From: Candidatus Goldiibacteriota bacterium HGW-Goldbacteria-1
Lineage (GTDB): Bacteria; Oederibacteriota; PGYV01
NCBI GenBank assembly: GCA_002839855.1
Contig: PGYV01000007.1
Span: 62,001 to 126,000, forward strand
Direction of reading: 5' to 3'
DNA length: 64,000 nucleotides
Part shown: in pieces, positions 17,220 through 45,757 of the stretch
How the letters are laid out: every line of letters starts with the position of its first letter
Numbering within the stretch: the first letter of the stretch is position 1
Made by a program: the position numbers and the translations under genes
The notes under the pieces: model-generated
What the model was told of the DNA's origin: nothing
Databases searched by the model: none
The model's input: the letters and a program-made list of their open reading frames with translations, nothing else

Positions 17220-18455
17220 TTAAATATTATTAAAAAAATACTTTACCGCTTCATTTGTTTCAATATTCATCTGTTCGCCGGTCTTCATATCTTTTACCGC
17301 AAGCCTGTCCGCCTGCGCTTCCGTGTCGCCTATTACAATTACGTGTTTTACGCCTTTTGAATCCGCTTCCCTGAACTGCGCCTTAAAACTTTTATCTTCA
17401 AATGATATAAGGGCTTTTATGCCGCCCTGCCTTAACATGTTTAACACGTTAAAAGCCATATCCCTGTGTTTCGCGTCATATACAATAAACACGCCAAAAG
17501 GCAATGATACCAACCCCTGCTGTGTCTTTAAAACCTCTGCCATGCGCTCCATTCCCATCGCAAATCCCGTGGCAGGGGTGCTTTTTCCGCCGAATTCCGC
17601 CACAAGATTATCATAACGCCCGCCCGCAAGAATTGTGTTTTGCTGCGGTCCAAGCAGCTGCGTGGTAAATTCAAATACAGTGCCTGTATAATAATCAAGC
17701 CCGCGCACCATTTTAGGGTCTTCTTCAAATTTCACGCAGGAAGCGGTTAATAATCTTTTAACTTCCGCGTAATGAGCCGCGGCCTGCGGTGTAAGGTTGT
17801 CGGTTATAAGCGGGGCGTTTTTTGTGGTTTCTTTACATTTTTCATTCTTGCAGTCAAGCACCCGTATAGGCGCGCGTTCTATTTTTTTAAGGCAGTCTTC
17901 ACAAAGCTGACTTTTGCGTTCTTCAAGATACTTTACAAGATTTTCCCTGTAGTCTTTTTCCGCGCCAAGGTTATTTATAAGCAGTTTACAGTCTTTTATC
18001 CCTGTTTCTGTCAATATATCCTGCGCAAGTTTTATCACTTCCGCGTCTTTATAGGGTGATGCTTCGCCAAAACTTTCCGCGCCTATCTGAAAAAACTCCC
18101 TGAAACGCCCCTTCTGAGGCCGTTCATACCTGAACATTGGGCCGTAATAGTACAGGTCGCTTTTTACCGGCAGGCTGTTTTCTATATAGGCCCTTACCAC
18201 AGACGCTGTTCCTTCCGGGCGCAGCACAATGTGCCTGTCGCCTTTATCCTTAAAATCATACATTTCTTTTATAACAATATCCGTGCCTTCGCCTATACCG
18301 CGGGCAAAAAGGTTAACGTCCTCAATAACGGGAGTGATGATATTGGTGTATCCGTATAAAGAGAACATTTTACGCGCGGCCGCGTTTATTTTTTCCCATA
18401 CCGCTGTCTCTTCCCCGAATACATCCTTAACACCGCGAAGGCGGCTGAATTTCAT
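17220..18455 (-). CDS. hisS: Histidyl-tRNA synthetase
   Basis: Class II aminoacyl-tRNA synthetase charging tRNA-His. The 411-residue length is typical. Motif 1 region RGVKDVFGEET is at residues 7-17. Motif 2 is MFRYERPQKGRFREFFQIGAE, and the two HisRS signatures read LRPEGTASVVRAY and GLDYYTGTVFEF. Motif 3, ATGFAMGMER, carries its invariant Arg. A C-terminal anticodon-binding domain follows (FGVFIVYDAKH onward). The start has GGGAGAATAAAATG. It abuts the downstream end of the LpoA-like gene with one base between. Confidence 0.96.
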   Translation of the reverse strand: MKFSRLRGVKDVFGEETAVWEKINAAARKMFSLYGYTNIITPVIEDVNLFARGIGEGTDIVIKEMYDFKDKGDRHIVLRPEGTASVVRAYIENSLPVKSDLYYYGPMFRYERPQKGRFREFFQIGAESFGEASPYKDAEVIKLAQDILTETGIKDCKLLINNLGAEKDYRENLVKYLEERKSQLCEDCLKKIERAPIRVLDCKNEKCKETTKNAPLITDNLTPQAAAHYAEVKRLLTASCVKFEEDPKMVRGLDYYTGTVFEFTTQLLGPQQNTILAGGRYDNLVAEFGGKSTPATGFAMGMERMAEVLKTQQGLVSLPFGVFIVYDAKHRDMAFNVLNMLRQGGIKALISFEDKSFKAQFREADSKGVKHVIVIGDTEAQADRLAVKDMKTGEQMNIETNEAVKYFFNNI

Positions 18456-18456
18456 T

Positions 18457-20796
18457 TTATTCTCCCTTTACTTTGCCAAGAATTTTTATGCCGTCTTCTA
18501 TTTTCATAATATAGTACTCTTTTACAGGGTCATTATTTGAATCAAAGGAAAATTTTCCGGTGACGCCTTCGTAATTTCTTACCGATCTAAGCATATCCTT
18601 AAACGCTTCCCTTGATTCAGCGCCGGATTCCAGTATGGCAGTCATTATCTTAATCATGTCGTACGTGTTAGCTTCAATTACACCCGGCATGGCGGCATAT
18701 TTTTCCTTAAAATCTGTTATGAATTTCTGAATATTTTCAGACGGCTCATCAGGGAAAAATTCAGAGGTAAAATGGATACCCTGCGAACTTTCCATAAAAT
18801 TCAAAAGATACGCCGGATTGTCAAAAGTGCCGCAGAAGATAGGCAGGTCAAGGTCGTAATACTTTAGCTGGTCCCTTATAAGGGTTATTTTTCTTTCAGT
18901 GGAAGGGACAAAAATGGCTTCAAGCCCCAGGGGGTTTAACTTAGGTTCTTTAAGTTTCCTGTATACAAATTTTATTTCATCAATTGCAGTTTCATCTGAT
19001 GCCGATATAGCCCTTATGGTTACATCAAAATAAAGGTAGTCTTCATCAGAAAAAGAATAGGAATATTTGGTGTTTCCCTCGCTGTCATAATCAGCTTCTT
19101 TCGGTATGAAACTGGCGTATATGGTATTTGACTGCCGCTCTTCTATGATACCCCATACCAGAACATCACTTTTCAGCTGCTGCGCGATGTTAAGGGCAAT
19201 TTCCCTGTCAACATCTTTAGGTTCCACTCCTATTTCGTTCATCAGCCCGTCTGTCTGTGCCTGCTTGGCCACAAGTACTTTTTCACCCCTTGCCATCGCG
19301 TATGACATCTGCTTTGTCATGTCAATATCAAGCCCGTATCTTATGGCATTTTCCCCTTCACAGGAAAATCTTAAAAGGGCAATATTCACCTTAGGAAGGT
19401 CTTCTTCTTTTAATACATCGGTTGCCGCCCAGTTACGGTATACTTTCATGTACTCAAAAGCTTTTTCAAGAATCTGTTTACCTGCAGATTCCATTTTATC
19501 GTTAATTGACCTTGTCTCTGCCGCGCGCTTTTCCTTAAGAAGCATGGTGTTAATTCCGCCAAGCGGCACAAGGTAGTTAAGAAAATCACTTTTGGAAGGT
19601 TCAAAACCCACGCTTCCGGAAAGCGAAGCGCCCTGTAATATTTTTTCCGTAAAAAAATCATTAAGGGATTTCCCCAGCGCGTCATTGGGATATAGCGAAG
19701 CTACTTTTCTATATGGAGTGCTGCCTGTTATGTATTTAGCCATCGCGTAAGCGTGGCCTTTTACCGTACCGCAGTTCCTGAAAAAATACGGGCTTGTACC
19801 CGTTAAATCAGGCCTGGCCGCAGTTGAAGAAAAGGATATCACATTGTAACTTTCCAGCAGCGGCGCTATTTTTTTAACGTTATTGCTGAAAACCGGCCCG
19901 GCAAAAGCTATGACATTATCTTCTTCTATTACTCTGACTATTTTTTTTACAAGGGCTTCGGGGTCCATTGACTCATCCACAAACACAAGTGCAAGTTTTT
20001 CTTCATCTTCCTTAATTCCCGCGTTGAATTCCGCGGCTCCCATTTCTATGGCATTTTTAATTGATTCTCCTGCTGCCATGCCTTTTCCGGTCAGGGGAAG
20101 TATAACGCCTATCTTTCTTTTATTAACCGGCTTATACAGCACCGCTTTTCTGAATTCATCGGAGACTTCCTGATAGAATTCGCTGTCCCTGTATTCCATT
20201 ACAAAAGACCTTGCGTGCGTGAAGAAATCAGTGGAATTGCTGTCTTTTATGTCCTGCTTTATTATGTAATAAAGGGCGTATTCATCAATAAGGGCATGAT
20301 AACGCGCCGCATATATTTTTTTAAGGCCGTCCATATTCTGCGCGGAAATTATTTCTTTAAGCCGTCCCAAAACCGCATCCTTGAATTCCGGAAACTGGTG
20401 CCTTTTCTCCGCCAGAACCTTGAATTTTTTCAGCGCTGTTTCAGTGTCTTTTTTTTCAACGCTTATTTCAGACAGGCGCAGAACCGATAAATACCCCCAG
20501 ATAATATCAGAATAATACTTTTCATTATGCCCAAAATACTTTTCAGCCCCCGGAATGTCACCTTTATTCAGGCAGTACTGCCCCGCCCAGAATGCCCCTT
20601 TGGCGCGTTCTGCCGTATTAATACCTTCAGAAGCAAGTTTTTTCCATTCCTTATACTCTTCTTCCGTAATTTCTATTTTCATGCCGGAAAGCGCGGCGTT
20701 TGGGTCTTTAACCACAACTTTGGGAGAACAGCCCGGTATACAGCACGCGATAAACGCGGCAATAATAAGAACAGCAATAAGACTTTTAGTTTTCAT
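18457..20796 (-). CDS. LpoA-like lipoprotein with inserted CsgG/LpoB-like domain
   Basis: A 779-residue exported protein with a lipoprotein-type N-terminus (Cys at 18, 19 and 23; the lipid site is ambiguous because P precedes the usual box). Residues about 40-225 form a helical, TPR-like region. A type I periplasmic-binding (PBP_6) domain starts at KIGVILPLTGKG (228-239), as in the penicillin-binding-protein activator LpoA. The PBP domain is interrupted after FLNYLVPLGG (about 414). Residues about 468-616 read like a CsgG/TolB-N/LpoB fold (VNIALLRF, VLVAKQAQTDGLMNEIG, LKSDVLVWGIIEE). The PBP fold resumes at GLEAIFVPSTERK (about 624). I infer a role in peptidoglycan synthase control or another envelope process. 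Its ligand is unknown. Confidence 0.75.
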   Translation of the reverse strand: MKTKSLIAVLIIAAFIACCIPGCSPKVVVKDPNAALSGMKIEITEEEYKEWKKLASEGINTAERAKGAFWAGQYCLNKGDIPGAEKYFGHNEKYYSDIIWGYLSVLRLSEISVEKKDTETALKKFKVLAEKRHQFPEFKDAVLGRLKEIISAQNMDGLKKIYAARYHALIDEYALYYIIKQDIKDSNSTDFFTHARSFVMEYRDSEFYQEVSDEFRKAVLYKPVNKRKIGVILPLTGKGMAAGESIKNAIEMGAAEFNAGIKEDEEKLALVFVDESMDPEALVKKIVRVIEEDNVIAFAGPVFSNNVKKIAPLLESYNVISFSSTAARPDLTGTSPYFFRNCGTVKGHAYAMAKYITGSTPYRKVASLYPNDALGKSLNDFFTEKILQGASLSGSVGFEPSKSDFLNYLVPLGGINTMLLKEKRAAETRSINDKMESAGKQILEKAFEYMKVYRNWAATDVLKEEDLPKVNIALLRFSCEGENAIRYGLDIDMTKQMSYAMARGEKVLVAKQAQTDGLMNEIGVEPKDVDREIALNIAQQLKSDVLVWGIIEERQSNTIYASFIPKEADYDSEGNTKYSYSFSDEDYLYFDVTIRAISASDETAIDEIKFVYRKLKEPKLNPLGLEAIFVPSTERKITLIRDQLKYYDLDLPIFCGTFDNPAYLLNFMESSQGIHFTSEFFPDEPSENIQKFITDFKEKYAAMPGVIEANTYDMIKIMTAILESGAESREAFKDMLRSVRNYEGVTGKFSFDSNNDPVKEYYIMKIEDGIKILGKVKGE

Positions 20797-20804
20797 TTTT
20801 CACC

Positions 20805-21710
20805 CTACTTTAAAAGATTTTCATTAACACGGACTTCATATTTCTTTTTTAATCCTGTTATCACGCCGTTAAACAGTTCTTTCTGCCTGTTATTTTGAAC
20901 CATCTGAATTATTTTTTCTTTTGAATCATCAAATGATATTTTCTTTTTTTCATTTACCTTGATAAGGTGGTAGCCGTAAATTGTCTTTACAGGGTCTGAT
21001 ACTTCGCCGGGTGACAGCATAAAAGCCGCATATTCAAATTCTTCCACCATCACGCCTTTTCCAAAAAGCGGCAATTTTCCGCCCTGGTCTTTAGTGGTGG
21101 CGTCTTCGCTGTATTTTTTTGTAAGTTCGTCAAAACTTTCGCCTGACGCGATCCTTTTACGAAGATTTAATGCAAGGTCCCTGTTTTTTATAAGCATATG
21201 CTGCGCGGATAATTCCACAAAATCTTCCTTATTTTTTTCGTAATAATCCCTTGCCTCTTTGTCAGTTATTTTTAACTTTTTTTCCACCATGTCGGTATAA
21301 TACGCGTGGGAAAGAATTTCATCAAAATCCCATTCATATTTGGCCGCCACTTCGGCTTTTTCCGCGTAACCCAGTTTTCTGGCTTCTATCGCCATAAGTT
21401 TTTTGTTTATAACGTATTCCAGAAACTCTTTTTCCTGCTCCGCGGAAAGTTTATATTCATACTTATCCTCATTATATTTTTTCATTATCTTATATTTTTC
21501 TTCAGATATTACATAACTGCCAATGGCAGCCACGGTTTTGGCGTCAAGCTTTGCCGCAGATTCTTCCAGCGAAGGCGCCTGTCCGGCCGCGCTTTTTTCC
21601 TGCGCAGATACTGCTTTGTATGGCTGGTCATCTTTTATAGCGGAATCAGTGGTACCGCACGATACAAATAAGAGTGACACCGCGCCGATTAAAAAAAATA
21701 AATGTTTCAT
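20805..21710 (-). CDS. PpiC-type peptidyl-prolyl isomerase lipoprotein (PrsA/SurA-like)
   Basis: A 301-residue exported foldase. The signal sequence ends in LLFVSCG, a lipobox with Cys18, so it is membrane-anchored. Helical SurA-N-like residues (about 60-160) precede a parvulin domain from about 163 to 260, with QHMLIKNRDLAL, FDELTKKYSED, GGKLPLFGKG and YGYHLIKVNEKK. It probably helps fold outer-membrane or periplasmic proteins, fitting the envelope genes around it. It is 8 bp upstream of the LpoA-like gene. The start ATG has an AGAGGTGA ribosome site. Confidence 0.9.
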   Translation of the reverse strand: MKHLFFLIGAVSLLFVSCGTTDSAIKDDQPYKAVSAQEKSAAGQAPSLEESAAKLDAKTVAAIGSYVISEEKYKIMKKYNEDKYEYKLSAEQEKEFLEYVINKKLMAIEARKLGYAEKAEVAAKYEWDFDEILSHAYYTDMVEKKLKITDKEARDYYEKNKEDFVELSAQHMLIKNRDLALNLRKRIASGESFDELTKKYSEDATTKDQGGKLPLFGKGVMVEEFEYAAFMLSPGEVSDPVKTIYGYHLIKVNEKKKISFDDSKEKIIQMVQNNRQKELFNGVITGLKKKYEVRVNENLLK

Positions 21711-45040: not shown

Positions 45041-45757
45041 TTATGCCCCGCTCTCTTTTATGTATCCCCTTAATTTCATCCTTGCAATTATCCTTGCAAC
45101 GCGCCTTTTCTGGAATTCTTCTTTCTGCTTTGTTAAAAGTTCTTTTCCCCTTGCCTTCGGCCGGGGGATAACAACGGCAAGCATGGCCGCTTCTTTGGGC
45201 GTAAGTTCATGCGGAGATTTGTTAAAGTATACTTTTGAAGCCTGTTTAATACCGTAAATTCCCTTTCCAAATTCCGCGATATTTATATAGTAATCAAGTA
45301 TCTGCCTTTTTGTAAGTTTATTTTCAACGCGAAGGGCGGTTATTGCCTCTATTATCTTTCTTTTAACTGTTTTTTCTTTGGTCAAATACGCGTTTTTAAC
45401 AAGCTGCTGGGTTATTGTGCTGCCGCCGTACTTCAATTTAAGATGAAGTATGTCATATCTTGCGGCCCTTAAAGTTTCATCTATATTAACCCCTTTATGC
45501 CTGAAAAAACTTCCGTCTTCCGCGGCAATTATCGCGCCTGTGACGTATTTGGGAAGTTCAGCGGAGCGGACAAAATCTTTTGAATACGGAGAAACAGAAC
45601 GTTTGATATAGGTTTTCCCGTTGTATGCCTTTATGGTTACTCTTGTTTTTATTTTGCTTATATCCGGAAGTATCGCGTTCATGACAGTAAAAAAACCGAT
45701 AATATAAGCAAACGCGCATTGAACTATAATAATTGCTCTTAACCGCAAAAGTGTCAC
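45041..45757 (-). CDS. mtgA: Monofunctional peptidoglycan glycosyltransferase (GT51)
   Basis: Polymerises lipid II into glycan strands at the inner membrane. An N-terminal membrane helix (IIIVQCAFAYIIGFFTVM) is followed by the GT51 domain: EDGSFFRHKGVN (first catalytic Glu and H-x-G), GGSTITQQLVKNAYL, KRKIIEAITALRVE and the second Glu in KRQILDYYINIAEFGKGIYGI. There is no transpeptidase domain, so it is monofunctional. I prefer GTG at 45757, with GAAGGA upstream; the frame extends to GTG 45808 without a ribosome site. A strong promoter lies at 45884-45912. Confidence 0.93.
   Translation of the reverse strand: MTLLRLRAIIIVQCAFAYIIGFFTVMNAILPDISKIKTRVTIKAYNGKTYIKRSVSPYSKDFVRSAELPKYVTGAIIAAEDGSFFRHKGVNIDETLRAARYDILHLKLKYGGSTITQQLVKNAYLTKEKTVKRKIIEAITALRVENKLTKRQILDYYINIAEFGKGIYGIKQASKVYFNKSPHELTPKEAAMLAVVIPRPKARGKELLTKQKEEFQKRRVARIIARMKLRGYIKESGA

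Follow-up and report, generated by a model that had tools for sequence, protein, structure and literature searches.

The window analysed here, a stretch of 64,000 nucleotides of contig PGYV01000007.1 from Candidatus Goldiibacteriota bacterium HGW-Goldbacteria-1, encodes a lipoprotein in which a TPR-like region is followed by a type-I periplasmic-binding (PBP) fold, and a separate domain of the CsgG/FlgO/LpoB fold superfamily is nested within the second lobe of that PBP fold. The architecture, the fold of the insert, its phylum-wide conservation and its position were established computationally. The nested architecture is real and old, and the job in cell-wall synthesis that has been proposed for it is unproven. 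No published description of such a nested design was found in literature searches.

Gene layout and the nested domain

The minus-strand open reading frame yields a product of 779 aa, and orthologues within the order are 37-91% identical to it (Table 1). The lipobox cysteine, Cys23, was invariant among the orthologues in two alignments, and the residue at position +2 after it reads as Ser, not Asp. Ser at +2 fits outer-membrane sorting under the E. coli lipoprotein rule. A BamA-type Omp85 is encoded in the same genome; the cell is therefore considered diderm, and an outer membrane is expected. Ten helices were present in residues 27-224 of the AlphaFold (AF2) model, and a profile of this region built from 15 sequences matched CpoB (1.3e-9) and BamD/YfiO (3.5e-5) in the PDB, while TPR Pfam families matched most members of the family. 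PF13458 (PBP_6) matched the protein in two stretches (E 6e-39), residues 228-409 and a second one after a gap, and PDB binding proteins aligned to residues 228-405 and 626-769. These matches confirm the TPR-like region and the PBP_6 domain reported in the first-pass annotation, and the alignments also agree with the boundaries that it gave for an insert of about 200 residues between FLNYLVPLGG and GLEAIFVPS, the segment being 209 aa long. The insertion site is a helix-to-strand junction in the second PBP lobe.

Table 1. Features of the nested-insert gene and its immediate neighbours (positions in the window)
Feature	Position	Strand	Evidence
PpiC-type PPIase lipoprotein, 8 bases upstream; neighbour conserved within order	20805..21710	-	Pfam Rotamase_3 4e-22; synteny
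Whole gene: TPR / split PBP_6 / nested CsgG-LpoB-fold lipoprotein, 779 aa	18457..20796	-	ORF call; orthologues
Signal peptide and lipobox ending at Cys23 (IPG-C)	20728..20796	-	Read from sequence; alignments
TPR-like helical region, residues 27-224	20125..20718	-	AF2 helices; CpoB/BamD profile matches; TPR Pfam matches in relatives
PBP type-I fold, first part, residues 225-413	19558..20124	-	PF13458 228-409; PDB binding proteins
Nested insert, residues 414-622, 209 aa	18931..19557	-	Alignments; own predicted fold; invariant G414, K421
Long entry helix of the insert, residues 417-449	19450..19548	-	AF2 models
CsgG/LpoB-fold core, residues about 466-616	18949..19401	-	Foldseek; superfamily profile matches
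PBP type-I fold, second part, residues 623-779	18460..18930	-	PF13458 second stretch; 3td9 626-769
hisS, 1 base downstream; neighbour also in phylum families f12, f13	17220..18455	-	Synteny

Gene order is conserved across the order, with small losses, as GalT-PPIase-nested-insert gene-HisS-PdxA-KsgA-GlmS-RlmI, and synteny analysis revealed no PBP gene and no ABC transporter gene among the conserved neighbours of the lipoprotein gene. A short transglycosylase frame (PF00912, 256 aa, MtgA-like) occurs in the same window at 45077-45589 (-).

Modelled in isolation, the insert formed an independent long helix and α/β domain (AlphaFold pLDDT 84.8, pTM 0.79). Foldseek ordered its PDB matches as LpoB, CT253, GNA1162, LPHT ring, FlgT, HpaA, PelC, CsgG and TolB, and the best match was LpoB 4q6l (E 3.7e-7, probability 1.00, TM 0.57 by target). 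At E <= 0.001, 39 of the 41 PDB matches were CsgG/LpoB/TolB-N/PelC-like or similar lipoprotein folds, and the remaining two were methyltransferase chains with a probability of about 0.3. Structure prediction and PDB matches thus agree with the CsgG/LpoB/TolB-N-like fold claimed earlier for this segment, with LpoB ranked at the top and TolB among the matches. The alternatives that the segment is an integral piece of the PBP domain or belongs to an unrelated family were also tested, and a separate fold with CsgG/LpoB-group matches was obtained.

Profile searches supported this assignment in part. The relatives of the insert matched FlgO (8.7e-6), FlgT_M (6.2e-5), LpoB (9.7e-4) and CsgG (4.5e-3) in Pfam, but the window insert alone gave nothing significant in Pfam or NCBIfam scans, LpoB (PF13036) included, and relatives and profiles were therefore needed for the superfamily link. 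The PF13036 cut-off was not reached by the insert, the E value of 9.7e-4 being that of the best relative. Outside the phylum, the insert profile matched CsgG-family proteins with E values down to 5e-14; in the PDB, LpoB and PelC were its best matches, both weak (0.02-0.09), and the LpoB match spanned 61 positions. Membership of the CsgG/FlgO/LpoB fold superfamily is secure, because the Pfam matches of the relatives, the out-of-phylum CsgG matches and the fold all point to it. Alignment with hhalign gave 98.7% against a small CsgG set, a value that is biased upward because the set was picked with the same insert profile, and comparisons with single E. coli sequences were weak (LpoB 52%, CsgG 5%). 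In sequence terms the insert is generically CsgG/FlgO/LpoB-like and not specifically LpoB; it is no closer to LpoB than to FlgO or CsgG. Matches to DUF5027 and Carbam_trans_N were below cut-off and not common to the relatives, and were therefore treated as chance.

In the alignment of the insertion site across 40 phylum members, G414 and K421 at the insert entry were invariant, and strict invariance was confined to this junction; the core of the insert was mostly 11-23% identical to that of the window outside its order. An order-specific loop at about residues 555-583 reads as polar and charged, unlike the CsgG membrane hairpin.

Distribution across the phylum and placement of the PBP domain

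Of the 45 genomes surveyed from the phylum (Goldbacteria/FCPU426), 41 encode the nested insert, whose site does not vary, and the four genomes without it are 65-84% complete. The survey of the phylum that the first-pass annotation had called for also revealed a separate LpoB-family lipoprotein, which is described below. The relatives are named Candidatus Goldbacteria/Goldiibacteriota or candidate division FCPU426, and a few records carry other names (for example Spirochaetia or Firestonebacteria). Outside the phylum, the nested architecture was not found in 244 genomes and a partly overlapping second sample of 386, a result that covers those long CsgG-like frames that were inspected; these encoded VWA, TPR, BlaR1/M56, NHL-repeat-like or CsgG proteins, with no PBP domain. 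Among proteins of other phyla, the CsgG-like domain was seen fused to a BlaR1/M56 peptidase (L096:1094-3589), fused to a VWA domain (L092:1121-3301) and together with NHL-like repeats as read from the sequence (L137:1-1731). Conversely, other phyla encode PBP proteins that have a long N-terminal region and no insert. Four such TPR + PBP_6 lipoproteins (L032, L047, L048 and L049) share the PBP domain, an N-terminal region of 220-290 residues and the same tree group with the window protein, but they have only 28-72 residues at the site and no CsgG-like insert.

Trees were built from PBP domains with the insert removed. A single clade of insert carriers was not rejected (p-AU 0.52), and one origin of the insert is compatible with the data. 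The PBP domain joined the TPR-PBP proteins in a group separate from the LivJ-type transport proteins (SH-aLRT 95). Proof from the tree that LpoA is the sister of the nested-insert family was not obtained, the placement of LpoA with LivJ types having a p-AU of 0.59.

Families f8 and f16 have kept the insert and have no TPR region; the TPR is therefore not needed everywhere. The short form in these families has about 550 aa (L035:3030-4679, L041:2934-4601). Two genes upstream of it lies a gene whose product has a membrane segment and sequence resembling TPRs, and a large cytoplasmic-looking protein is encoded between the two.

Relation to LpoA, LpoB and class A PBPs

The lipobox, TPR-like region and type-I PBP fold of the window protein follow the order seen in the lipoprotein LpoA (PF04348, LppC; YraM). 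Among the top 50 Foldseek matches of the whole model, H. influenzae LpoA was the sole TPR + PBP protein (758-793 columns, E 6.7e-15); the TM-score of this match was low, and therefore either the match is partial or the model orients the domains differently. When the insert was deleted, the profile aligned with E. coli LpoA (probability 96.2, E 2.2e-9) through a similar TPR-PBP linker at the same place (YKPVNKRKIGVILPLTG vs FKPASTNKIALLLPLNG). Region 2 of E. coli LpoA (S493-N531), described as disordered or flexible, without a known function and missing in H. influenzae (PMC4111904), aligns just before VDAVYIVATPGEIAFIKP, which matches LEAIFVPSTERKITLIRD of the window, and this is the corresponding lobe-2 junction. 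Residues 493-531 of E. coli lpoA (L108) thus fall at the helix-to-strand junction that in the window protein holds the folded insert (window positions 18931-19557).

The likeness to LpoA has limits. The PF04348 score was 15.5 bits vs a cut-off of 28.8, and this family had no match in the genome of the window at E <= 0.001. The TPR region alone gave no profile match to E. coli LpoA, and among E. coli proteins the PBP domain scored higher with LivJ (72.5 bits) than with LpoA (27.1 bits). Where E. coli LpoA has a disordered loop, the window protein has a folded CsgG/LpoB-type domain, and no ODD-bearing PBP1A was detected in the genome of the window. The claim that one lipoprotein joins LpoA-like and LpoB-like parts is right as to architecture, in layout, fold and nesting; as to family assignment, the PF04348 score is too low and the insert is not LpoB-specific by sequence.

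The insert resembles LpoB (PF13036) in its fold, in its top PDB match and in the 61-position profile match, but it is nested and has no long flexible linker. The same genome encodes a distinct LpoB-family lipoprotein (E 3e-41, L080:4656-5258 (-), G000:C1). No significant sequence relation was detected between the insert and the stand-alone LpoB of the phylum (hhalign probability 2.6%), and the idea of the insert as a copy of the genome's own LpoB was not supported. A gene for a TPR-containing lipoprotein (L080:3363-4649) lies 6 bases downstream of the stand-alone gene. The stand-alone lipoprotein occurs in most of the order of the window and in families f7 and f13, and in just one of the seven f12 genomes. 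LpoB/CsgG-like matches were numerous in genomes G016, G035 and G015 (18, 15 and 8 places, respectively), most of them within frames of 300-900 aa.

Of the 44 genomes searched, 40 encode class A PBPs or other proteins with a transglycosylase domain. In the genome of the window, two class A PBPs are located at G000:C2:67045 and G000:C10:49846. Four class A PBPs were examined and contained solely transglycosylase and transpeptidase domains, with BiPBP_C also present in two of them. UB2H (PF14814) was absent from the genome of the window and was matched in a few other phylum genomes, outside the transglycosylase genes. Neither the class A PBPs checked nor the genome of the window contained ODD/PCB_OB (PF17092); a divergent docking region is possible. 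Matches to ODD/PCB_OB elsewhere in the phylum also lie outside the transglycosylase genes.

Candidate roles of the nested protein

We tentatively prefer the explanation that the protein is an outer-membrane-anchored, periplasm-spanning, Lpo-like regulator or scaffold, with the insert as a membrane-distal partner-binding module; its location, orientation, partner and activity are what we infer. The protein would keep the layout of LpoA, namely, a lipid anchor, a TPR and a rigid PBP-fold body, and a CsgG/LpoB-superfamily domain would have been inserted once into PBP lobe 2, no later than in the common ancestor of the phylum. LpoA itself is a long molecule of about 145 Å that contacts PBP1A through its C-terminal domain (PMC4111904). 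Since the TPR is attached to lobe 1 and the insert to lobe 2, the topology suggests that the nested domain would occupy the end of the protein distal to the outer membrane, away from the cleft. There it may bind a partner in envelope assembly, the likeliest being a class A PBP or some other component of peptidoglycan synthesis that would dock without UB2H or ODD. This explanation is consistent with the domain content and fold, the structural match to H. influenzae LpoA, the insert-deleted alignment, which brings region 2 of E. coli LpoA to the equivalent junction, the fixed site in 41/45 genomes with carrier monophyly not rejected, the grouping of the PBP domain with TPR-PBP proteins apart from LivJ types, and the BamA-type Omp85 and PPIase lipoprotein neighbour in a context free of transporter genes. 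Several results weigh against it: the class A PBPs have no detectable UB2H or ODD and none is adjacent, PF04348 stays below its cut-off, LivJ outscores LpoA, the tree does not place LpoA firmly, the TPR part on its own gives no profile match to E. coli LpoA, and f8/f16 have no TPR. A bolder form of the Lpo-like regulator, which we regard as quite unlikely, would be phylum-specific: an LpoA-type arm, in place of a flexible linker, would deliver the LpoB-fold domain to the inner-membrane side, and this domain would control peptidoglycan synthases through a docking surface unrelated to UB2H/ODD. The lobe-2 junction would then serve LpoA-type proteins in general as a plug-in site, filled by a disordered segment in E. 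coli and by a folded domain in the window protein.

An unlikely explanation is that the nested domain oligomerises or forms rings at the outer membrane in an envelope or secretion complex, with the TPR-PBP part as its decoration or gate and with no link to PBP activation. Many of the structural matches are ring-formers (LPHT ring, FlgT, PelC dodecamers, CsgG), the best Pfam matches of the relatives are FlgO and FlgT_M, and several out-of-phylum profile matches belong to the CsgG family. However, the insert is tethered at both ends inside PBP lobe 2, its loop at about 555-583 is unlike the CsgG hairpin, and its top structural match, LpoB, is not known as a ring-former. The named members of the CsgG/FlgO/FlgT_M/PelC/GNA1162/TolB-N superfamily, relatives of the insert in sequence and fold, carry the domain free or at a terminus and not within a PBP lobe. 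Rather unlikely is a ligand-sensing lipoprotein whose PBP domain binds an amino acid, peptide or wall fragment, so that cleft closure moves the nested domain and signals to a partner. The PBP fold is complete and close to that of LivJ-type proteins, with which it shares PF13458, and in the alignment Ser304 stands opposite a cleft serine with a role in ligand binding in E. coli LivJ. The cleft threonine of LivJ, which contacts the ligand, is replaced by Ala/Gly/Ser in the nested-insert family, which is mildly against LivJ-like amino-acid binding. In addition, LivJ/LivK-type solute-binding proteins have no TPR and no insert, are found in a transporter context and lie on the other side of the tree; with its different grouping and no transporter genes nearby, the window protein was not placed among the LivJ-type ABC solute-binding proteins.

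The first-pass annotation had suggested that the nested design integrates the PBP1A and PBP1B routes, acting in LpoA style through the PBP fold and in LpoB style through the nested domain. This is improbable. The architecture and the class A PBPs or other transglycosylase-domain proteins in 40/44 genomes fit the idea, but the two-route model has no positive support beyond architecture, because LpoB exists separately, UB2H and ODD were undetected in the class A PBPs, the insert is not LpoB-specific and PF04348 is below its cut-off; an adjacent PBP gene is also missing. It is highly improbable that the insert has no partner and serves as a passive spacer or stabilising decoration: the variable core and the restriction of strict invariance to the entry junction would suit such a role, but the insert is kept in 41/45 genomes, TPR-less lineages included.

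According to an earlier description (PMC3060616), LpoA and LpoB are outer-membrane activators that are unrelated, evolved separately and are restricted to gamma-proteobacteria. In a phylum far from gamma-proteobacteria, a single polypeptide combines the two folds, with the nesting at a constant site, and a separate LpoB-family lipoprotein is retained by many members as well. It thereby becomes possible to test whether control of cell-wall synthesis from the outer membrane is more ancient and more widespread than has been assumed, and the nested domain may hint at what the unexplained region 2 of E. coli LpoA does.
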